Source of the DNA: Candidatus Thioglobus autotrophicus
GTDB lineage: Bacteria; Pseudomonadota; Gammaproteobacteria; PS1; Pseudothioglobaceae
Reading direction: 5' to 3'
Length of the DNA: 64,000 nucleotides
Assembly (NCBI RefSeq): GCF_001293165.1
Contig: NZ_CP010552.1
Location: 1,116,001 to 1,180,000 of the forward strand
Shown here: piece after piece, positions 3,749-53,886 of the stretch
How the letters are laid out: every line of letters starts with the position of its first letter
Numbering within the stretch: the stretch's first letter is position 1
Translations under genes and position numbers: made by a program
The notes under the pieces: model-generated
What the model saw: the letters and a program-made list of their open reading frames with translations, nothing else
Told to the model about the DNA's origin: nothing
Databases searched by the model: none

Positions 3749-3773
3749 TCTCTTATTCAAAGAGGAGAGAGAA

Positions 3774-4589
3774 ATGAAAAAACTAATAACAGTAGTAGCT
3801 GGTATCGGTTTTTTAGTTGGAGCAGCATCTGCGGATGTCGCTTCTGACCAAAAAGATTTGATCGGTTATTTTAAAGCACTTAAACCTAATGTTGAGTTTG
3901 CAGACTACACCAATGGTGTTTATGCATATGATGCAGGTTCAAGAGATCAATTTGAAGAAATTTTAGATGGTATTCCTCCATATGAGGAAGCTGTTGAAAA
4001 AGGCGGAAAGGAGTTTGTTAAGTTCGGTCTTAATAAGTGTGCTGCACTTAAAGATCCTGCTGCAGCTCGTGTGAAGCATCCTTACTTTGACGAAGCAACT
4101 CAAAAAGTTGTAACTCTTGAAGGTGTTCTTAAGGCGTGTTACCTAGAGCAAACGGGTAAGAAGCTAGGCTCTAATAAAGGAAAAATCGCGCGCATTAGTG
4201 CATGGATTTCTGATCAAGCGGCTGGAGAAAAAGTCAATGTAAAGGTTGAAGGTGCTGCTGCAAATGCTGCTTACAACCAAGGTAAAGCTTACTTCTATGG
4301 AAAGCGTGGTGAGTTCAATATGTCATGTGCAGATTGTCATGTATACAATGCTGGTAAAAAAGCTCGTGCTGACATCTTATCACCTGCTCTAGGTCATACA
4401 ACACACGTACCGATGTATCGTGCGAAGTGGGCTGGTTTAGGTACGCTACAACGTCGTTATGGTGGTTGTTTGAAGAATATGCGTGCTAAGCCAATTAGTT
4501 CTCAATCTGAGTTAATGAATAACTTAGAGTATTTCCATCAAGCAATGAGTAACGGTCTAGAAATCACTGACGCTCGTTACAGAAAATAG
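3774..4589 (+). CDS. soxA: SoxA, catalytic cytochrome subunit of SoxXA
   Basis: SoxA, with SoxX, forms the heme enzyme that joins thiosulfate to the SoxY cysteine. The 271-residue product has a Sec signal peptide (about residues 1-20), a single CADCH heme site (C185-H189) and the catalytic cysteine in RRYGGCLKNMRAKP (C232), which becomes the cysteine-persulfide heme ligand. Two further cysteines, C89 and C122, take the place of the N-terminal heme present in diheme SoxA, so this is the monoheme type. The start at 3774 has AGAGGAGAGA immediately upstream and gives a proper signal peptide; reading upstream from 3612 would overlap soxZ. Confidence 0.95.
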   Translation: MKKLITVVAGIGFLVGAASADVASDQKDLIGYFKALKPNVEFADYTNGVYAYDAGSRDQFEEILDGIPPYEEAVEKGGKEFVKFGLNKCAALKDPAAARVKHPYFDEATQKVVTLEGVLKACYLEQTGKKLGSNKGKIARISAWISDQAAGEKVNVKVEGAAANAAYNQGKAYFYGKRGEFNMSCADCHVYNAGKKARADILSPALGHTTHVPMYRAKWAGLGTLQRRYGGCLKNMRAKPISSQSELMNNLEYFHQAMSNGLEITDARYRK

Positions 4590-24309: not shown

Positions 24310-24649
24310 GAAGTTGGTCGGATGGTCGCTGGTAGGTTTGCTTATCAGAGGAAAGTCCGGGCTCCATAGAGCAAAGTGCTAGCTAACAGCTAGGTAGGGT
24401 GACCTAATGGAAAGTGCTGCAGAGATTTAAACCGCCTGTTTCGGCAGGTAAGGGTGAGAAGGTGCGGTAAGAGCGCACCGCGCGGAAGGCAACAACCGTG
24501 GCAAGGTAAACCCCACTTGGAGCAAGCTCAAATAGGCTACCATTGATGCGGCTCGCATAAGGTAGCGGGTAGAGTGCTAAAGGGTATTGGTGACAATGCG
24601 CGTAGATGAATGACTATCTATTACAGAACCCGGCTTATAGACTAACTTC
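24310..24649 (+). ncRNA. rnpB: RNase P RNA, class A
   Basis: This is the catalytic RNA that trims tRNA 5' ends. The ends GAAGTTGGTC (24310-24319) and GACTAACTTC (24640-24649) pair to form helix P1. The conserved core is present: GAGGAAAGTCCGGGCTCC near 24348, the GGTAAGGGTGAGAAGGTG region, AGAGCGCACCGCG, AACCCCACTTGGAGCAAG, and ACAGAACCCGGCTTATAG near the 3' end, which includes the P4 strand. The length of about 340 is normal for gammaproteobacteria. A T-rich stretch follows but no clear terminator hairpin. The 168 bases between rnpB and the next gene hold nothing else recognisable. Confidence 0.96.
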
Positions 24650-24817
24650 TTACTTCTTCTTTTTTCTTTCTACTTTGTTAAGTTTTAAGAAAATACTCAA
24701 TCACATGGTTTTATCCATGTTCAGTCTTATTTTTTAATACTTGCCTCGCATAAAGTAAAAAATAATTGTAATAAGCTAATTATTGAAATTCCTATTTAAT
24801 TGTTGTAGAATGAAACA

Positions 24818-27950: not shown

Positions 27951-27968
27951 CGTCTCTCCTCGTTGAGA

Positions 27969-28760: not shown

Positions 28761-29387
28761 TTATAGCTTGACAGTCGTCAACCCTAGAGATTTCCAGTTT
28801 TGCATGCCACCACGGAAATATTTAATTTTAGCAGCTGGGTAGCCGTAGCTAAGTAGCGCTTTGACCGCCGCAGGCGTTTGTCCACACCAAATACCGTTGC
28901 AATACATCACCAAGGTTTTGGCGTAAGTAAAGTCAAACACATCATCTACTTGCACACCAAGCTGATCTTCCATGATCTCTAGCGCTTTATCTTTTTTCTT
29001 GAATTTGGTATATGGAATATTAACTGCAGTCGGTATGCCACCTGAAATCGTTACCCAGTTTGGAGTGCGAGTATCGATCACCATGATTGAATCATCACCA
29101 GAAGATTTTTGTTTGACATAATTAATCATATCAAGCTCACCAATAGTTTCAACCAAGTTCGGTGCAAACGGGTTCATGGGTTGGATTTTCCCACGTGCAG
29201 TTTTTAGGTAAAAATCAGAAATTTCATTATCCTGATCTTGATCACGCTGTAGTTTGACAGTTTTGTCATTATGCATAACCTCAATCGAAACTACTCCCGG
29301 AGACATAAACACTTGTTTGGTTTTTTCGCCTTCGGCACTGGCCATAAGCGGTAGTGTACTTATTAATAAAATTGCTAATTTATTCAT
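28761..29387 (-). CDS. Secreted rhodanese-like protein, CNGxWC type (paralogue 1)
   Basis: This 208-residue protein has a signal peptide (about residues 1-18), a conserved lead segment (KLQRDQDQDNEI, GKIQPMNPFAPNLVETIGELDMINYV) and a rhodanese domain whose active-site loop reads CNGIWCGQTP near residue 160. Rhodanese domains transfer sulfane sulfur through the first loop cysteine; the second cysteine three residues on is unusual. Two close relatives lie at 46825 and 47586. The periplasmic location suggests a role in handling thiosulfate-derived sulfur, an inference from the family and the sox-containing genome. GAGGAGAAA precedes the start. It is between rnfE and prmC, probably in one transcript. 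Confidence 0.85.
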   Translation of the reverse strand: MNKLAILLISTLPLMASAEGEKTKQVFMSPGVVSIEVMHNDKTVKLQRDQDQDNEISDFYLKTARGKIQPMNPFAPNLVETIGELDMINYVKQKSSGDDSIMVIDTRTPNWVTISGGIPTAVNIPYTKFKKKDKALEIMEDQLGVQVDDVFDFTYAKTLVMYCNGIWCGQTPAAVKALLSYGYPAAKIKYFRGGMQNWKSLGLTTVKL

Positions 29388-46824: not shown

Positions 46825-47475
46825 ATGATGCTACGTCAATTTTTTTATAAGTTTAATTTTTCTATATTGCTAGTCAGTGCTAGTTTGCAAATTATTGCAG
46901 ATAGTGAGGTGCCTGTAAAAGAGGTGTTAATCCAGAAAGACTTTAAGTCGATCAATGTTATTCATCATAGTGTTCCTGTTGATATTGAGCGAAATCAAGA
47001 TCGTAAAAATAATATCATGGCGTTTTATCAGGGAACTTGGCGTGGGAAAATACAGCCATTACATCCGTTTAAGCCTCACCCAGTAGAAACAGTAGCCGAG
47101 CTTGAAATGATCGATTATATTGATAAAATGTCCCATGGTGATGATTCTATTATGATTGTTGATTCACGCCCTAAATCAGCTATTTTAATTACCGGCATGA
47201 TTCCTGGTGCAACTCAGGTTGATTATATCGACATTGTTTCTAGTCATTACAGAGTAAAAGCTTTTGAATTATTTAATGTTAAAAAGAATAATTCCCAATG
47301 GGATTTTACCGATGCCAAAATATTAGTTATTTATTGCAATGGCCTTTGGTGTGGAAAATCTCCAAGAATGATTCGAAAGTTAATTAAACTTGGTTATCCA
47401 GCACAAAAAATTAAATACTATCGTGGCGGTATGCAAGCTTGGAAATCAGTCGGACTAACAACTGTTAAGGAATAA
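46825..47475 (+). CDS. Secreted rhodanese-like protein, CNGxWC type (paralogue 2)
   Basis: The 216-residue protein has an N-terminal hydrophobic signal segment (about residues 8-26), the shared lead WRGKIQPLHPFKPHPVETVAELEMIDYI, and the active-site loop CNGLWCGKSP near residue 171, followed by the shared end KIKYYRGGMQAWKSVGLTTVKE. It closely parallels the genes at 28761 and 47586. It is expected to move sulfane sulfur in the periplasm. No ATGGTTTACCAT palindrome is found before it; it may be read through from the M16 genes 38 bases upstream. Confidence 0.85.
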   Translation: MMLRQFFYKFNFSILLVSASLQIIADSEVPVKEVLIQKDFKSINVIHHSVPVDIERNQDRKNNIMAFYQGTWRGKIQPLHPFKPHPVETVAELEMIDYIDKMSHGDDSIMIVDSRPKSAILITGMIPGATQVDYIDIVSSHYRVKAFELFNVKKNNSQWDFTDAKILVIYCNGLWCGKSPRMIRKLIKLGYPAQKIKYYRGGMQAWKSVGLTTVKE

Positions 47476-47498
47476 TTTTTCCTTATTGTTGGATAATC

Positions 47499-47531
47499 AT
47501 GGTTTACCATAATATCATATTATTCTAATAT
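47499..47531 (+). promoter_or_regulatory. Palindromic operator and -10 element of the rhodanese-like gene
   Basis: The perfect palindrome ATGGTTTACCAT (47499-47510) is followed by AATAT and, 15 bases after the palindrome, TAATAT (47526-47531) as a probable -10. The segments ACCATAATAT and TTCTAATA occur at the same spacing before the cytochrome gene (53854-53886). The palindrome sits where an activator replacing a -35 element would bind. Confidence 0.65.
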
Positions 47532-47585
47532 AAATTAAAATACACACCTGGAATTATTAAAATTAAAAAAAATCTAGGGGTAAAT

Positions 47586-48293
47586 ATGAAATTGTTAGTC
47601 TTGATACCTGTTTTTACAGCTATTATCTTTGCGTCTGTAAGTGCCAATCAGCCAAATAAAGAAGTAATTAATGCTGTTGAATATAATTCAGTTATAAATA
47701 CTTCTAATGTTAAAAAAATAAAAAAGAAAAAGCCGGTATGGCTTAAACCTGGTGTTATTGGCACCACTCTGGTTGTAGACGGCAAGCCTTTTGTTATTGC
47801 TAGAAATCAGGATAGAAAACATCTTATTGCTAAGATTTATCAAAAAACAGGTCGGGGCATTATTAAGCCAATGCATCCGTTTAAACCGCACGCTGTAGAG
47901 ACTATTGCTGAGCATGAAATGATTTCATATATTTCTCGTTTATCATCGAAGAAGGGCGATGTTGTTGTGGTTGATGCCAGAAAATCAATTTGGCCAACAT
48001 TGACTGGAAGTCTTCCAGGGGCAATTCACGTGCCATTTCATCGATTTAAGAAAAACAAAAAATATGCACTCGAGACTCTTGAAGATGAATTCGGTGTTGT
48101 GATTAATAATAAGGGTGAAATGGATTTCTCCAATGCTAAAACATTAGCGGTTTATTGCAATGGAAATTGGTGCAAAATGTCTCCAGAACTTATTTGGGCG
48201 TTATTGGATTATGGCTATCCAGCTCACAAAATCAAATATTATCGTGGCGGCATGCAAGCTTGGCAACTGCTCGGATTGACCACTGTTGATTAA
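47586..48293 (+). CDS. Secreted rhodanese-like protein, CNGxWC type (paralogue 3)
   Basis: The 235-residue protein has a signal peptide (about residues 1-20), a lysine-rich linker (NVKKIKKKKPVW), the shared lead GRGIIKPMHPFKPHAVETIAEHEMISYI and the loop CNGNWCKMSP near residue 190. The end KIKYYRGGMQAWQLLGLTTVD is nearly the same as in paralogue 2. The protein is likely periplasmic and acts in sulfane-sulfur transfer. A palindromic operator lies 75 bases upstream. AGGGG precedes the start. Confidence 0.85.
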   Translation: MKLLVLIPVFTAIIFASVSANQPNKEVINAVEYNSVINTSNVKKIKKKKPVWLKPGVIGTTLVVDGKPFVIARNQDRKHLIAKIYQKTGRGIIKPMHPFKPHAVETIAEHEMISYISRLSSKKGDVVVVDARKSIWPTLTGSLPGAIHVPFHRFKKNKKYALETLEDEFGVVINNKGEMDFSNAKTLAVYCNGNWCKMSPELIWALLDYGYPAHKIKYYRGGMQAWQLLGLTTVD

Positions 48294-48325: not shown

Positions 48326-48357
48326 ATGGTTTACCATGATATAGGTCAACTGATATC
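48326..48357 (+). promoter_or_regulatory. Palindromic operator before the sensor kinase gene
   Basis: A second exact ATGGTTTACCAT (48326-48337) lies 36 bases before the kinase start. GATAT follows it, and TGATAT or GATATC (48351-48357) is near the -10 position seen at the sister sites, off by about 2 bases. This suggests that the two-component system controls its own gene. Confidence 0.55.
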
Positions 48358-48373
48358 AGTGTTAAAATAAGAC

Positions 48374-50077
48374 ATGTCTTGGTATAAGTTTATTACCACT
48401 ATTGTTTTGTTATTTAGTTTCAATGCAGCCTTTAGTGCCAAACCCACTGAAATTACGATTGCTATTCAATCTTTTTTAGGGAAAGATGCTGCGTATCAAA
48501 AATGGCAGTCCACTACCGATTACCTTTCTCGTCGGATGCCCGATTATTCTTTCAACATTATTGTTGTTGATGCGCCAGATGATGCTTTGTTATACGATAT
48601 GGTGAAGCAAAAAAAAGTTGATTATGTCATTACCCAGCCTATTGCATCTGTTGAGCTTAATCGTCTATACAATACAAAAATTAATTTAACAAAAGTCAAC
48701 CAAGCAGGTGTTGATCAGCTTGGTGGTGTCATATTTACTTCGGTTAATAATCATTCCATTACTACTATTGAGGCATTGAAGGGTAATAGCTTTGCCGCTT
48801 CAACGCCAAGGCGATTAGGCGGTTGGCTGCTTGCCTTGGATTATTTACGCGATAAGGGTATAAACCCCCAAAGTGATTTTTCTAAAGTTGTTTTTTTAGG
48901 CTCTCAAGATAATATTGTCAATGCGGTTGTTAACGGTTTGGTTGATGCTGGCACGGTACGAACGGGCGTTATTGAAAAGATGATCGATTCAGGTCAATTG
49001 CGTATGGAACAGATTAAAGTACTCAATAATAAACAAAATTCTTCTTATTTTATAACGACAAAAACAGCGCCAGAATGGTCATTTTCATCACTCGAGCATA
49101 CTGATGTAGCACTCTCTAAAGAGGTGCAAATAGCATTGTTAAATTATCATGTTAACGGCCAAAAGCAGTGGAAAAAAGCACTAGATTATGAAGGTGTTCG
49201 TGCGTTAATCAGAAAGCACAGAATTGGCATCTATCAAGATCCTGGACATATTAATTTTTATAAAAAGAATTATCAATTAATTTTAATTATTTTACTGTTG
49301 ATTGCTTATTTATTGTTCATGTTAAAAAGCCGCCGAGAGTCTGAGATTCATAACTACAAGCTCAAGCTTGAAGAGTTATACAAAGTCTCATCAGTTGATC
49401 AGTTACTGTCAGAAATAGCACACGAACTGGCTCAACCCATTACTTCACTCAAAATTGATGCGCATATGTTAGATAGTATGCTGAAAAATCATGACAGCTG
49501 TCAGTTAGATGAAATTCGATCAACCTCAGATGGGTTGCGTGAAAAGACAGACCATTGTGTTGATTTGATTTTGAATATTCGTCAATTCTTATCAACAAAA
49601 ACCACTGTTAAGGAAATTTTCAATATTAATAATAATGTTGAAAGAATTATTCGATTATTAAAAAATGAACTCAATGAGCATAATATTGAGGTGAGATTAT
49701 CCCTTAAACAGAACTTACCAGATGTTAATATGAGCCCCGTTGAGCTTGACCAAGTGCTACTTAATTTAAGTAAAAATGCCATCAGCGCCATGGCAGATAA
49801 TCAAAAATCTGACAATGTGCTTAGTATTTTTACAACTGATAAACAAGGTTTTGTTGAGATTATAGTCAGTGATACCGGCTCAGAAATTAAAGATAAATTG
49901 CATTTATTTGATTTGTTTAAAACATCAAAAAAGCAAGGAGAGGTAGAGGGATTGGGTATTGGTTTGAGTTTGAGTCGACGCATTGTTCGTTCTTATGCGG
50001 GTGAATTATCGTTAGAATCTAGTTCAATTGGGGGTAGTCAATTTATGGTAAAAATTCCGAGTATTAAAGATGAATGA
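48374..50077 (+). CDS. TtrS-like sensor histidine kinase with PhnD-type periplasmic domain
   Basis: The 567-residue protein has a signal segment (about residues 1-22), a PhnD-like periplasmic binding domain (about 25-290, with DYVITQPIASVELNRLYNT and GNSFAASTPRRLGGW), one membrane segment (about 300-318), and a kinase with the phospho-acceptor EIAHELAQPITS (H350), the N box LLNLSKNAISAM, a D box SDTGS and the G box GLGIGLSLSRRIV. This layout is that of TtrS, the tetrathionate sensor. In a sox-bearing cell tetrathionate, thiosulfate or a related sulfur compound is a reasonable signal, but the ligand is inferred. No tetrathionate reductase genes are near. It overlaps the regulator gene by 8 bases. 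Confidence 0.85.
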   Translation: MSWYKFITTIVLLFSFNAAFSAKPTEITIAIQSFLGKDAAYQKWQSTTDYLSRRMPDYSFNIIVVDAPDDALLYDMVKQKKVDYVITQPIASVELNRLYNTKINLTKVNQAGVDQLGGVIFTSVNNHSITTIEALKGNSFAASTPRRLGGWLLALDYLRDKGINPQSDFSKVVFLGSQDNIVNAVVNGLVDAGTVRTGVIEKMIDSGQLRMEQIKVLNNKQNSSYFITTKTAPEWSFSSLEHTDVALSKEVQIALLNYHVNGQKQWKKALDYEGVRALIRKHRIGIYQDPGHINFYKKNYQLILIILLLIAYLLFMLKSRRESEIHNYKLKLEELYKVSSVDQLLSEIAHELAQPITSLKIDAHMLDSMLKNHDSCQLDEIRSTSDGLREKTDHCVDLILNIRQFLSTKTTVKEIFNINNNVERIIRLLKNELNEHNIEVRLSLKQNLPDVNMSPVELDQVLLNLSKNAISAMADNQKSDNVLSIFTTDKQGFVEIIVSDTGSEIKDKLHLFDLFKTSKKQGEVEGLGIGLSLSRRIVRSYAGELSLESSSIGGSQFMVKIPSIKDE

Positions 50078-50669
50078 TTTACTTAAACAATCAGTCAATG
50101 TCTATATTGTTGATGATGAGGCTGAAATTAGAGAGTCGTTGTCACGATTTTTTACTTATCATGGTTGCCAGGTTGAAGTTTTTGCTGATGCAAAAAGCTA
50201 TCTCGATCAGCTTGATCAAAGTCAAGTAGGTTGTTTGGTGAGTGATATTGATATGGAAGGGATGAGTGGTCTTGGGCTTCAGCGTCATTTGCAAGAGATT
50301 AACTGTATTCGCCCCACTATTTTTATGACGGGTCATGGTAGTGTAAATCTTGCTGTTAAGGCAATGAAGCTGGGTGCAACTGACTTTATTGAAAAGCCTT
50401 TTGATCCAAATATTTTGCTTAAAAAAATTAAAATTTGTATTGATTCAAATCGTAAGCAAATTGAATTGCTTGGTCGTTATCGCACGCTTACCAAAAAAGA
50501 ATGTGAAATTTTTGAGTGTGTTGCTAAAGGTAAAAAGAATAAGGAGATGGCCGAAAATTTGTGTATTTCTATGCCCACTGTTGAAGCGCACCGCTCTCGG
50601 GTTATGAAAAAGATGCAAGCAAGCTCTTTGTCAGAGTTGGTAAAAATGTCAGTTACTCTGTCAAAATAA
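50070..50669 (+). CDS. TtrR-like response regulator (FixJ family)
   Basis: The 199-residue protein has an N-terminal receiver domain (IVDDEAEIRE, phospho-acceptor in VSDIDMEGMSG near residue 59, switch lysine in EKPFDPN) and a C-terminal LuxR-type helix-turn-helix (TKKECEIFECVAKGKKNKEMAENLCISMPTVEAHRSRVMKKM; key: LT-E, VA-G--NKE-A--L-IS--TVE-HR). It is the partner of the upstream kinase. It probably binds the ATGGTTTACCAT palindromes found nearby. Normal for the family in length and motifs. Confidence 0.9.
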   Translation: MNDLLKQSVNVYIVDDEAEIRESLSRFFTYHGCQVEVFADAKSYLDQLDQSQVGCLVSDIDMEGMSGLGLQRHLQEINCIRPTIFMTGHGSVNLAVKAMKLGATDFIEKPFDPNILLKKIKICIDSNRKQIELLGRYRTLTKKECEIFECVAKGKKNKEMAENLCISMPTVEAHRSRVMKKMQASSLSELVKMSVTLSK

Positions 50670-50700: not shown

Positions 50701-51270
50701 CTAAATCATATTGTGTTTGATTAATGTTGGTTTAAAGATGACCAATGCTGCAATAATAAAAACAATACCGCCTAAAATTCCACTAATTGAATATGATTGC
50801 ATAAACCATGTCCAATCATCAATAATTTTTCCATTCATTGGATAGACTATCAACTTACCGAGCGTTGCAAGAAAAACAGTTAAAACAATCAATGCTAGAA
50901 TGTGCGCATAGTTCGCTTTTCCGGCAAAGAAAAAATTACCAAAATTAGCAGATCGCATTGCCCAGATAGCGATAACTGGTGCTAAACTATCAATAACCTT
51001 TCCCAAATAGCTATTGATGTAGACCATGTCAAAGCCTCCTTTGATAATAAGGGCGGCAACCAAGTATCCGGCCAAAACACCAAAAAACGCTCGATTTCCA
51101 AATATTAAGATTGCAAAGATGGAAGCCCCCATTGGAAGCCAAATGTAATTGGCTACAGAAATATTATAATGATCAAATGGAATGATTGCGTATCTCGATA
51201 AAAAAACTGCAACAAAAGCTATTAAGTTATATTGTATAAACCTTTTATTTATTATACTATTTTCAGACAT
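50701..51270 (-). CDS. MASE1-like integral membrane protein
   Basis: This 189-residue protein has about five or six membrane segments and contains YIWLPMGASIFAILIFGNRAFFGVLAGYLVA (key: W-P-G, G-RA--G-LAGYL), the pattern of MASE1 membrane sensor domains. Unlike most MASE1 proteins it has no attached output domain, so it may be a stand-alone membrane sensor or partner. It is convergent with the response regulator gene (31 bases apart), and its upstream side is disrupted by the insertion sequence. Confidence 0.6.
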   Translation of the reverse strand: MSENSIINKRFIQYNLIAFVAVFLSRYAIIPFDHYNISVANYIWLPMGASIFAILIFGNRAFFGVLAGYLVAALIIKGGFDMVYINSYLGKVIDSLAPVIAIWAMRSANFGNFFFAGKANYAHILALIVLTVFLATLGKLIVYPMNGKIIDDWTWFMQSYSISGILGGIVFIIAALVIFKPTLIKHNMI

Positions 51271-51449
51271 TGTCTACCTTTACCATCTATATTGGTATCT
51301 AATTTTAATATTTGGTATTATAAACATTGAGGTTATTTAATTATTATCATTAAAAGCATTTATTATATGGTTTTTTTTAAAACTATTTTTCAAGCTCGCT
51401 TATTAGGAACAAAATAATCTAGAAATTTATCTATGGACCAATATAAACT

Positions 51450-51453
51450 ATAA
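51450..51453. repeat. Target-site duplication, left copy (ATAA)
   Basis: ATAA directly before the left inverted repeat matches ATAA directly after the right inverted repeat (52758-52761). Four-base duplications are in the range for IS3-family elements. Confidence 0.6.
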
Positions 51454-52757
51454 CACCCCAATAAATTAAGACAACAATTTAAGATTTCTTATTTCGAACG
51501 AGTTAAACTTAACCCAACAATTCGGAGTAAAAAATTATGAGTAAAAAACGTACAACCTACAGCTCAGCATTTAAAACAAAATTAGTACTTGAACTATTAC
51601 AAAATGCAGATACCCTGGCAGAGATTGCCAGCAAGCATAACATTCTTCCACAAAACCTAGTGAACTGGAAGAAGACCTTCCTTGCCAACGCAGAGATTGC
51701 TATGGAGCCCTCTAAAGCAGTTAAAGAGTACAAGGAGGAGCTTATTAAATCACAAGAGAAGAACGAGCGCTTAACAGCGCTGGTAGGTAAAGTAACCGTA
51801 GAGAAGGAATGGTTAGCAAAAAAGCTAAAAAGCTTGGGCTCATCTAAACTAAAACAATTAGTTGATCTCAAGCCATCACCAGCATCTATCTCTATTAATC
51901 ATCAATGTCAGCTGCTTGGCATTAACAGAAGTGGCTTGTATTACAAGCCACGAGTTAACCACGCCAAGCAAACAATTAAGAGTCATATCACCAAGGTGTT
52001 TGAACAGATACCCATTTACGGCGAGAAGAAGGTGCATCAGCAACTGCTTGAGGATGGTATCAAGGTCAGCTTAAATACGGTAGCTCGCTACCGTCAAGAG
52101 TTGGGCTTAAAGGCTGTATTGGCCGTTAAACAAGTCAATACAACCATGCCAATCAAAGAGCATAAGAAATACACCTATAAGCTCAGAGGGCTTAATATTA
52201 GCCATGCTAATCATGTCTGGAGTACCGACATCACCTACATCAAGATTGCCGGTGGCATGGTCTATATGGCAGCCATCATTGATTGGCACAGCAAAGCTGT
52301 GCTATCACACAGAATATCTAACACCATGGATGTTCAGTTAGTGATGAGTGTGCTCAATGATGCACTAGCTAAGTATCCATATCCAGAGATCTTTAACACC
52401 GATCAAGGTAGCCAGTACACCAGTGAGATACACACTCAAAGGCTTAAAAATCTAGGTATTACTATATCCATGGATGGTAGGGGTAGAGCCACAGATAATA
52501 TCTGCATTGAGCGCTTCTGGCGAAGCGCCAAATGCGAAAGAATCTATTTGAACGAATACCAAAATATCAATGAGTTAACCACTGATGTAGATGACTATAT
52601 TGAGTTTTACAACCATCGAAGATTCCATCAAACGCTAGACTACAAAAAACCAATGGACGTGTACCAAGAAAGTATAAAATTAAACCAGAATAAGAAGAAG
52701 GCCTCTTAGGATGTTCTATATAAGAAATTTTAAAAAGTTGTCAGAGGTTTTGGGGTG
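51454..52757 (+). mobile_element. Complete IS3-family insertion sequence
   Basis: The 1304-base element has imperfect inverted repeats of about 39 bases: the left begins CACCCCAATAAATTAAGACA (51454 on) and the right, read on the minus strand, begins CACCCCAAAACCTCTGACAA (52757 back). Both run to a shared TTTCTTA. It encodes one intact transposase and is flanked by ATAA duplications, so it may still be active. It inserted directly beside, or into the edge of, an older relative whose 3' part survives at 52763-53260. Confidence 0.9.
51537..52709 (+). CDS. IS3-family transposase (fused OrfAB)
   Basis: The 390-residue protein combines an N-terminal helix-turn-helix (KRTTYSSAFKTKLVLELL, as in OrfA), a leucine-rich coiled-coil (about residues 65-105), and an integrase catalytic domain with the DDE triad: D in WSTDITY near residue 230, D in NTDQGSQYTS near 288 and E in CIERFW near 324. 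Many IS3 elements make the fusion only by frameshifting; here one frame encodes the whole protein. GGAG lies before the ATG. Confidence 0.93.
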   Translation: MSKKRTTYSSAFKTKLVLELLQNADTLAEIASKHNILPQNLVNWKKTFLANAEIAMEPSKAVKEYKEELIKSQEKNERLTALVGKVTVEKEWLAKKLKSLGSSKLKQLVDLKPSPASISINHQCQLLGINRSGLYYKPRVNHAKQTIKSHITKVFEQIPIYGEKKVHQQLLEDGIKVSLNTVARYRQELGLKAVLAVKQVNTTMPIKEHKKYTYKLRGLNISHANHVWSTDITYIKIAGGMVYMAAIIDWHSKAVLSHRISNTMDVQLVMSVLNDALAKYPYPEIFNTDQGSQYTSEIHTQRLKNLGITISMDGRGRATDNICIERFWRSAKCERIYLNEYQNINELTTDVDDYIEFYNHRRFHQTLDYKKPMDVYQESIKLNQNKKKAS

Positions 52758-52762
52758 ATAAA

Positions 52763-53212
52763 GTGTATATGGCAGCCATCATTGATTGGCATAGTAAAGC
52801 TGTGCTATCGTATAAGATATCAAATACCATGGATACTCAGCTTGTCATGGGTGTACTTAATGAAGCTTTGGAGAAATACCCACATCCAGAGATATTTAAT
52901 ACTGATCAAGGCAGTCAATACACCAGCGAGATACATGCGCAGCGCCTTAAAAATCTAGGTATTACTATATCCATGGATGGTAAAGGTAGAGCGACAGACA
53001 ATATCTGCATTGAGCGCTTCTGGCGAAGCGCTAAAGTTGAAAGAATCTATTTAAATGCATACCAATCCATTGGCGAGTTAACTACCGATGTAGATGACTA
53101 TATCGAATTTTACAACCATCGTAGATTCCATGAAACACTAGACTACAAAAAACCAATGGATGTGTATCAAGAGAGTATAAAATTGAACCAGAATAAGAAG
53201 AAGGCTTCTTAG
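52763..53212 (+). pseudogene. Truncated IS3-family transposase fragment
   Basis: The fragment encodes the last 149 residues (MYMAAIIDWHSKAVLSYKIS onward) of an IS3-type transposase. It retains NTDQGSQYTS and CIERFW but lacks the first catalytic aspartate and the DNA-binding region, so it cannot be functional. The GTG at 52763 is only the accidental edge of the homologous segment. Confidence 0.9.
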
Positions 53213-53260
53213 GATGTTCTATATAAGAAATTTTAAAAAGTTGTCAGAGGTTTTGGGGTG
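52763..53260 (+). mobile_element. 3' remnant of a second IS3-family element
   Basis: From 52763 the sequence is homologous to the last 500 bases of the intact element, ending in the same inverted repeat (TTTTGGGGTG at 53251-53260). Everything upstream of the catalytic centre is missing. The transposase part differs at about 15 of 149 residues from the intact copy, whereas the 3' non-coding end is nearly identical, so it is a separate, older element rather than a duplicate of the present insertion. Confidence 0.9.
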
Positions 53261-53277: not shown

Positions 53278-53310
53278 ATGGTTTACCATAATAGACTATT
53301 TATTCAATAT
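53278..53310 (+). promoter_or_regulatory. Palindromic operator and -10 element before a candidate small RNA
   Basis: A third exact ATGGTTTACCAT (53278-53289) lies 17 bases beyond the end of the IS remnant. It is followed by AATA and, at the same spacing as before the rhodanese gene, CAATAT (53305-53310). No protein gene lies downstream on this strand before the terminator at 53405-53435. Confidence 0.55.
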
Positions 53311-53316
53311 TTAGGA

Positions 53317-53436
53317 TAATAGAATTAGTTGCATTGGTTTTCTATCTCTCCTCAGATTTATTTTTCTAGTGCAACACCCTATTTGATAGTTGAATGCTAA
53401 TTATAAAAAACCCTAATCATTGATTAGGGTTTTTTA
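53317..53436 (+). ncRNA. Candidate small RNA with an anti-Shine-Dalgarno loop
   Basis: This gene-free stretch has a promoter-like upstream site, a 5' stem-loop and an intrinsic terminator. GTTGCATTGG (53328-53337) pairs with CTAGTGCAAC (53366-53375), including two G-U pairs. The 28-base pyrimidine-rich loop contains TCTCTCCTC (53345-53353), exactly complementary to GAGGAGAGA in the ribosome-binding sites of soxX (2592-2600), soxA (3762-3770) and dctP. The start near 53317 is estimated from the -10 position. The RNA and its function are inference; an alternative is that the stretch is just the 3' region of the convergent cytochrome gene. Confidence 0.4.
53405..53435. terminator. Bidirectional terminator
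   Basis: AAAAAACCCTAATCA (53405-53419) and TGATTAGGGTTTTTT (53421-53435) form a strong hairpin with A residues on one side and T residues on the other. It can end the candidate small RNA (plus) and the cytochrome gene (minus). Confidence 0.9.
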
Positions 53437-53454: not shown

Positions 53455-53802
53455 TTAGTATGAGTTACTGGCTTGGACTACTTTGACATTCATAATAAAT
53501 TGATAATATTCATCATTTAAATATTTAACGATTTCCTTTTCCTCTTCTGGAAACCAAGCAGAATCGTAGTAGTTTGAGCAGCGATTAATTTGACCTTTTA
53601 AATCGGCAAAGTTTTTGATCTTGGCGCCACCTAAAGAACGAGACTCGTAAAATTCTCGATTATGACTATAATTCGCACCACTATCTTTATGACAATTCAA
53701 ACAGGTTTCGTTGTGAATATCTTGAGCGTTAAAAGCCGTAGCTGTATTTAATAGGCTAAAACTTAGTGTGATTGCTAGTGCTTTTAAAATCTTAACTTTC
53801 AT
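53455..53802 (-). CDS. Small periplasmic monoheme c-type cytochrome
   Basis: The 115-residue protein has a signal peptide (about residues 1-23), one heme motif CLNCH (C34-H38), and the ending CSNYYDSAWFPEEEKEIVKYLNDEYYQF (key: C----WFPEEE--VKYLN--YY) common to a group of small cytochromes acting with sulfur- or nitrogen-compound enzymes. The later cysteine near 75 is typical. It probably passes electrons in the periplasm; the partner is unknown. An operator-like palindrome with matching -10 lies 72 bases upstream. Confidence 0.88.
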   Translation of the reverse strand: MKVKILKALAITLSFSLLNTATAFNAQDIHNETCLNCHKDSGANYSHNREFYESRSLGGAKIKNFADLKGQINRCSNYYDSAWFPEEEKEIVKYLNDEYYQFIMNVKVVQASNSY

Positions 53803-53853: not shown

Positions 53854-53886
53854 GTATTAGAAGATTAGTATATTATGGTATTCCAT
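53854..53886 (-). promoter_or_regulatory. Palindromic operator and -10 element of the cytochrome gene
   Basis: On the minus strand ATGGAATACCAT (53886-53875) is followed by AATAT and by TAATAC (53859-53854), with ACCATAATAT and TTCTAATA in the same relative places as before the rhodanese gene at 47499-47531. The palindrome keeps ATGG/CCAT but differs at two central bases. The distance to the cytochrome start is also nearly the same (72 against 75 bases). Confidence 0.65.

Follow-up and report, generated by a model that had tools for sequence, protein, structure and literature searches.

The interval 53327-53436 probably encodes a trans-acting small RNA, sRNA1, which together with sibling anti-Shine-Dalgarno (anti-SD) sRNAs would repress the translation of SoxXA and of a rhodanese; we put the probability of this reading, which is drawn from sequence analysis, at about 0.68. 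All positions refer to the window, i.e. the whole stretch of 64,000 nucleotides that was analysed, corresponding to bases 1116001-1180000 of the 1,512,449-bp single-contig genome of Candidatus Thioglobus autotrophicus EF1, a cultured SUP05 chemoautotroph (PMC4616170). The anatomy of the RNA, the covariation of its stem, the conservation of its loop, the preferential conservation of the SDs complementary to it, and an operator shared with other promoters at the same spacing were all seen in the sequence. By its structure and loop, sRNA1 appears to belong to a group of three or more sibling hairpin RNAs found in SUP05 bacteria. The original prediction of one candidate RNA stood for sRNA1 itself but was incomplete, as the most widespread of the siblings, sRNA2, lies outside the window.

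Anatomy and predicted structure of sRNA1

The predicted transcript of about 110 nt was delimited on the basis of the spacing of its -10 element, its fold and covariance-model homologs in four genomes (G003, G010, G099 and G020). It comprises the following elements, listed with those of its promoter:

53278-53293, + strand: operator-like palindromic box ATGGTTTACCATAATA of sRNA1, with three perfect copies in the genome
53315-53320, + strand: -10 element GATAAT, by sequence, at the 37-nt distance from the box start that the other promoters have too
53327-53436, + strand: predicted sRNA1 transcript
53328-53375, + strand: main stem-loop with a 10-bp stem (arms 53328-53337 and 53366-53375)
53345-53353, + strand: anti-SD loop TCTCTCCTC, the exact complement of GAGGAGAGA
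53405-53435, + strand: terminator-like hairpin, by fold, with a counterpart in G003

The palindromic site and the -10-like element named in the original prediction were both found, and the promoter formed by them was recognised by sequence alone. The 5' stem-loop was also confirmed, as sRNA1 folds at -35 kcal/mol in comparison to -19.2 +/- 2.9 for shuffled sequences (z = -5.4). For the proposed terminator the outcome was mixed: the hairpin at 53405-53435 is present in the fold, and G003 has a similar one, yet it was not flagged by a simple terminator scan. This hairpin reads AAAAAACCC..GGGTTTTTT and so could act on either strand. In G010, TTTTTTT comes after the main stem of the sRNA1 homolog. 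No gene lies behind sRNA1 on its own strand. The sole Rfam match at gathering score within the window was the class A RNase P RNA at 24310-24653.

Conservation of sRNA1 in related genomes

Homologs of sRNA1 were found by Blast and the covariance model in two members of the EF1 genus, G003 and G010, and in two genomes from other genera, G099 and G020, giving, with EF1, five genomes in total, all of Thioglobaceae. When these were compared, as had been suggested together with the original prediction, the stem showed compensatory changes around an invariant loop core: 98% of the cells of its ten pairs are paired, three pairs are changed on both sides, and the core TCTCCTCAG is identical in all five genomes. 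Model R2 gave nothing further outside Thioglobaceae among 369 genomes of the class; the weak R1 and R2 matches (G087, G007, G026 and others) were taken as chance, with the exception of G010:C42, which is sRNA3 (see below).

In G003, G010 and G099, sRNA1 comes after the regulator and MASE1-like genes of a sensor kinase locus. In EF1, the MASE1-like gene is inverted (region 50701-53258), and an IS3-type element is located between it and the sRNA1 operator, just upstream of the latter. The IS remnant described earlier was found there as well, as a second, truncated transposase copy beside the fuller one (82% identical over 300 nt).

Sibling RNAs

A second hairpin, sRNA2 (genome positions 796218-796277, outside the window), likewise has TCTCTCCTC in its loop, and its stem, again of 10 bp, starts approximately at the expected transcription start. 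Of the 83 genomes in the family, 40 are matched by the sRNA2 model at E <= 0.05, one with a weak score (E > 0.01), and these span nine of the 11 genera. No match was obtained in the g3 and g9 genomes searched, and the two complete g3 genomes were also without a SoxA match. In the 38 aligned copies, 99% of the cells are paired and eight of the ten pairs are changed on both sides, and none of 500 shuffles gave pairing as good. The loop CTCTCCCCCAAGAATTATTCTCTCCTCAAGAGATAAGG is near-invariant in most copies, and a sigma-70-like promoter (TTGACATATTA..ATGATATAAT, -35 and -10) is conserved. In the g4 genomes, intrinsic terminators of varying sequence follow immediately after sRNA2; in Thioglobus-like genomes no terminator was seen behind it, and for sRNA3, described next, none was established either.

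The third RNA, sRNA3, is located 0.4-0.85 kb beyond sRNA2 and consists of two hairpins, with CTCTCCCCC and TTCTCCTCAAG in their loops, followed by a CCTCCTC stretch. When the sRNA2 loop was used as an exact pattern against 84,980 species, hairpins were obtained solely in SUP05, Thioglobus, symbiont and gammaproteobacterial records, including Ca. Thioglobus pontius, T. perditus, an uncultured SUP05 bacterium, a Ca. Ruthia, a Ca. Ruthturnera and the symbiont of Bathymodiolus heckerae. Matches to the pattern in Tenacibaculum, Legionella and Brevinema were rejected, no such hairpin being present there. The C/U-rich strand is most probably the RNA, because G.U cells outnumber A.C cells in the stems of both sRNA2 (24:1) and sRNA1 (6:0).

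We also noticed, in Thioglobus-like genomes, the start of a small exported protein about 25-30 nt downstream of sRNA2, not preceded by an obvious SD; in EF1 this protein has 81 residues and no Pfam match (L208:1560-1800, genome 796277-796520). On the upstream side of sRNA2 lies a tRNA gene, which has this position in g4 and g10 too. A further hairpin in G008 (L296:226-279) holds TTATTCTCTCCTCAAGAG on an unrelated stem, GGGCAGCT/AGCTGCCC, with no recognisable promoter, and is a possible fourth sibling.

Predicted target sites

The complementarity of the sRNA1 loop to the SDs of soxX, soxA and a dctP-type gene, on which the original prediction was built, was confirmed at the following sites:

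2592-2600, + strand: soxX SD, predicted target site GAGGAGAGA, exact in 13 of 18 genomes
2604-2951, + strand: soxX, above the NCBIfam SoxX cut-off
3762-3770, + strand: soxA SD, predicted target site GAGGAGAGA, exact in 19 of 24 genomes
3774-4589, + strand: soxA, above the NCBIfam SoxA cut-off
27953-27961, - strand: SD of a dctP-type gene, GAGGAGAGA match in EF1

By chance, 0.15 copies of GAGGAGAGA would be expected in the window. The whole EF1 genome has eight: six are SDs, located 2-3 nt before an ATG, and the other two are the complements of the sRNA1 loop and of the sRNA2 loop (genome position 796247). The six SDs precede soxX, soxA, two dctP-type genes and the genes for an MBL-fold protein and a rhodanese, and all six proteins have signal-peptide-like starts, as expected of exported proteins. 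An order-2 Markov model predicts about 2.9 copies in the genome, and six copies in SD form are modestly above naive expectation. As a background for SDs we used 448 genes, called crudely from the window and from 400 kb of evenly spaced genome stretches; AGGAG was found in 60 of their leaders and GAGGAGAGA in three, exactly those of soxX, soxA and dctP. With eight copies genome-wide and three in 448 leaders, GAGGAGAGA is therefore rare and not the usual SD of hundreds of genes, the finding that would have spoken against the original prediction. Ranked by duplex energy with the sRNA1 loop, the six EF1 sites took places 1, 2, 3, 4, 7 and 10 among 451 leaders, three of the six having been added to the set because they match.

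Across 24 genomes, GAGGAGAGA is exact in 32 of the 42 soxX and soxA leaders and in none of the 60 leaders of soxY, soxZ and soxK, which mostly have AAGGAGAA or TAGGAGAA instead; the lack of a nine-base match in these three genes, initially noted for EF1, thus extends to its relatives. The exported rhodanese keeps the motif in about 13 of 22 cases and its tandem paralog never does. Among six close orthologs of one dctP gene with GAGGAGAGA (not the copy in the window), only two have the motif; dctP, placed beside soxX and soxA in the original prediction, was accordingly dropped as a conserved target, and the sulfur rhodanese is predicted from these counts to be the better third one.

The loop and the SDs also tend to go together. 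G033, a reduced endosymbiont whose soxX and soxA were located from 800 kb in stretches, has a decayed sRNA2 loop, and the motif is gone from both SDs; since loop and motif are both degraded, this is co-loss and not compensatory change, and it also fits general decay in an endosymbiont. GAGGAGAG is present in 28 of 31 soxX and soxA leaders from genomes with an intact sRNA2 loop and in 5 of 12 from genomes without one (Fisher p = 0.002, from a tally made by hand and ignoring shared ancestry). G021 has an intact sRNA2 loop but a changed soxA SD. As a separate observation, in EF1 and G001 (L156:199 and L297:238) a GAGGAGAG SD-like site before an ATG is enclosed in a hairpin of the self-complementary form TTTTTTATAAC..GTTATAAATAA, which may make it a start site regulated in cis.

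Shared operator and two-component locus

The sRNA1 operator recurs at the neighbouring locus of a two-component system and at genes beside it:

47499-47514, + strand: box ATGGTTTACCATAATA before an exported rhodanese gene
47586-48293, + strand: exported rhodanese-domain protein behind the box (Pfam Rhodanese)
48326-48341, + strand: box ATGGTTTACCATAATA before the kinase operon, conserved in G003 and G010
48374-50077, + strand: TtrS-like sensor kinase with a PhnD-like periplasmic domain (Pfam, NCBIfam)
50070-50669, + strand: FixJ/TtrR-type response regulator (Pfam, NCBIfam)
53455-53802, - strand: small exported c-type cytochrome-like protein (CLNCH), by sequence, with no Pfam or NCBIfam match
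53871-53886, - strand: variant box ATGGAATACCATAATA before the cytochrome-like gene, in the same arrangement in G003 and G099

Perfect copies of ATGGTTTACCATNATA occur three times in the genome, before the rhodanese (47586), the kinase-regulator operon (48374) and sRNA1, and a gapped form of the box was absent from 400 kb of sampled genome. Counting the variant box before the cytochrome-like gene, there are four such promoters, and at each of them the distance from the box start to the first base of the -10 element is exactly 37 nt. The spacing recurs at the orthologs in G010, G099 and G003, in the last with a shift of one base at sRNA1. The operator sequence ATGGTTTACCAT is a candidate site for the response regulator, which would bind the box and act as an activator, as suggested by the box centre near -43 and by the presence of the box at the regulator's own promoter. 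The pair scores 176.7 and 147.3 bits against the NCBIfam TtrS and TtrR models, below the respective cut-offs of 750 and 290.

The predicted -10 element of the kinase operon (48363-48368) is so near the ATG at 48374 (region 48363-48376) that the mRNA would be leaderless or its translation would begin at a downstream codon; the G003 kinase has an annotated-looking ATG that overlaps the operator itself. EF1 has several exported rhodanese paralogs, at 28773-29261 and as a tandem pair beside the kinase operon (46825-48293), in which only the downstream member (47586) has the operator.

Discussion

The SDs in question hold AGGAG, needed for ribosome binding anyway, and their conservation could in part serve translation itself. 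Carried further, this means that the hairpins could be real RNAs that act elsewhere or bind a protein, while GAGGAGAGA is kept only for translation initiation. The motif indeed persists in the G001 and G008 drafts, where no sRNA2 was found, and no target is assigned here to the CTCTCCCCC half of the sRNA2 loop. However, the flanking G and GA, unneeded for pairing with the ribosome, are kept at soxX and soxA, while the neighbouring sox genes keep another SD and the rhodanese differs in the same way from its tandem paralog, and so we consider this explanation unlikely, though deserving of attention. The sRNA2-type hairpins might instead act in cis, as 5' leaders for the small exported protein, whose reading frame in Thioglobus-like genomes begins about 30 nt downstream with no terminator seen between; this is improbable because of the stand-alone copies of sRNA2 in g4, where terminators follow directly, and in g2, where the frame is missing, and sRNA1 likewise has no gene behind it.

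It is very improbable that the functional RNA lies on the opposite strand as a decoy of the CsrB/RsmZ kind with GGA loops. GAGGAG does occur in the complement of each loop, and the sRNA1 terminator-like hairpin is symmetric, but the promoters and the g4 terminators point the other way, as does the excess of G.U over A.C cells; assignment to the CsrB/RsmZ class was rejected, the GGA loops of that class being absent from the C/U-rich strand that promoter, terminator and G.U asymmetry indicate as the transcribed one. It is equally hard to credit that the U/C-rich loop and the purine-rich SDs match by chance. Purine-rich SDs do make matches likely, a caveat already attached to the original prediction, and the Markov expectation for the 9-mer is about 2.9 genomic copies; nevertheless, covariation around an invariant loop core across genera, together with the preferential conservation of the SDs in comparison to their controls, goes beyond chance and led us to reject it.

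The reading of sRNA1 as an anti-SD RNA, by contrast with these alternatives, agrees with the conserved unpaired C/U-rich loop and with complementarity kept at soxX, soxA and the rhodanese of relatives. A loop complementary to the start signals of soxX, soxA and a sulfur gene could lower the production of their proteins. In the mechanism we propose, a stem beginning at the predicted transcription start would hold out the fixed C/U-rich loop of sRNA1, which would pair with the SD GAGGAGAGA of soxX, soxA and the periplasmic rhodanese and block ribosome binding, so that translation of SoxXA and the rhodanese would drop and soxY, soxZ and soxK would be spared. From its sigma-70-like promoter, sRNA2 would set a standing, basal level of control, and sRNA1 would contribute a pulse on top of it in response to a signal. 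Sensing of a periplasmic, probably sulfur, ligand would fall to the adjacent TtrS/TtrR-like system, whose regulator, bound to ATGGNNNNCCAT, would turn on sRNA1 along with the operon of the system itself, a different rhodanese and a cytochrome. The net effect would be that one rhodanese is swapped for another while SoxXA is lowered. No match to Hfq was obtained in the window and the sampled stretches, which cover part of the genome. The link from sulfur sensing to SoxXA drawn in the original prediction is upheld in part, by the covarying RNA, by the SDs kept at soxX and soxA and by the operator common to sRNA1 and the adjacent system; transcription, pairing in the cell, repression, regulator binding and the identity of the ligand are what we infer from these features.

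SUP05 bacteria rank among the major sulfur oxidisers and dark-carbon fixers of oxygen minimum zones and hydrothermal plumes, and their relatives are symbionts of mussels and clams. With concrete RNAs and exact predicted target sites for thiosulfate oxidation in the cultured EF1, post-transcriptional control of Sox becomes directly testable; if true, it would be a way to tune SoxXA apart from SoxYZ inside one operon. At about even odds, SUP05 bacteria, the mussel and clam symbionts included, control the SoxXA step post-transcriptionally by family-wide sibling anti-SD RNAs, one of them driven by a sulfur-sensing system that also switches on a rhodanese and a cytochrome, which would amount to a layered RNA switch between modes of sulfur oxidation.

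Comparison with known systems

The sRNAs of the AbcR1/AbcR2 type of rhizobia are a homologous pair that act post-transcriptionally on metabolism and use anti-SD motifs on the mRNAs of transport proteins. Unlike sRNA1 and sRNA2, they are alphaproteobacterial, and the EF1 RNAs have no Rfam match: no family of Rfam 15, the described sibling sRNAs included, reached its gathering cut-off. No small RNA of SUP05 bacteria was found in the literature searched.

NmsRA and NmsRB of Neisseria meningitidis are also siblings, whose UC-rich loops or single-stranded stretches complement the SDs of metabolic targets, and their tandem arrangement resembles that of sRNA2 and sRNA3 (PMC5362039). They differ in sequence and in targets, the TCA cycle in comparison to Sox as predicted here for RNAs known from sequence. 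The NmsRs depend on RelA (PMC5362039), whereas control of sRNA1 appears to lie with a two-component system. The related TtrS/TtrR and ThsS/ThsR systems of Shewanella sense thiosulfate and tetrathionate, and FixJ-like inverted repeats have been discussed as their operators (PMC5408782). The model nearest to the EF1 kinase is that of TtrS, and the kinase has a PhnD-like sensor domain and is paired with a FixJ/TtrR-type regulator; unlike TtrS/TtrR, the EF1 pair is far below the equivalog cut-offs, and its neighbours are a rhodanese, a cytochrome and an sRNA, while no operon for a reductase was seen next to it. Judged by analogy with these systems, the RNA family is a new one, its working mode, that of sibling anti-SD sRNAs such as NmsRA/B, would be one already known, and its physiological role appears to be new.
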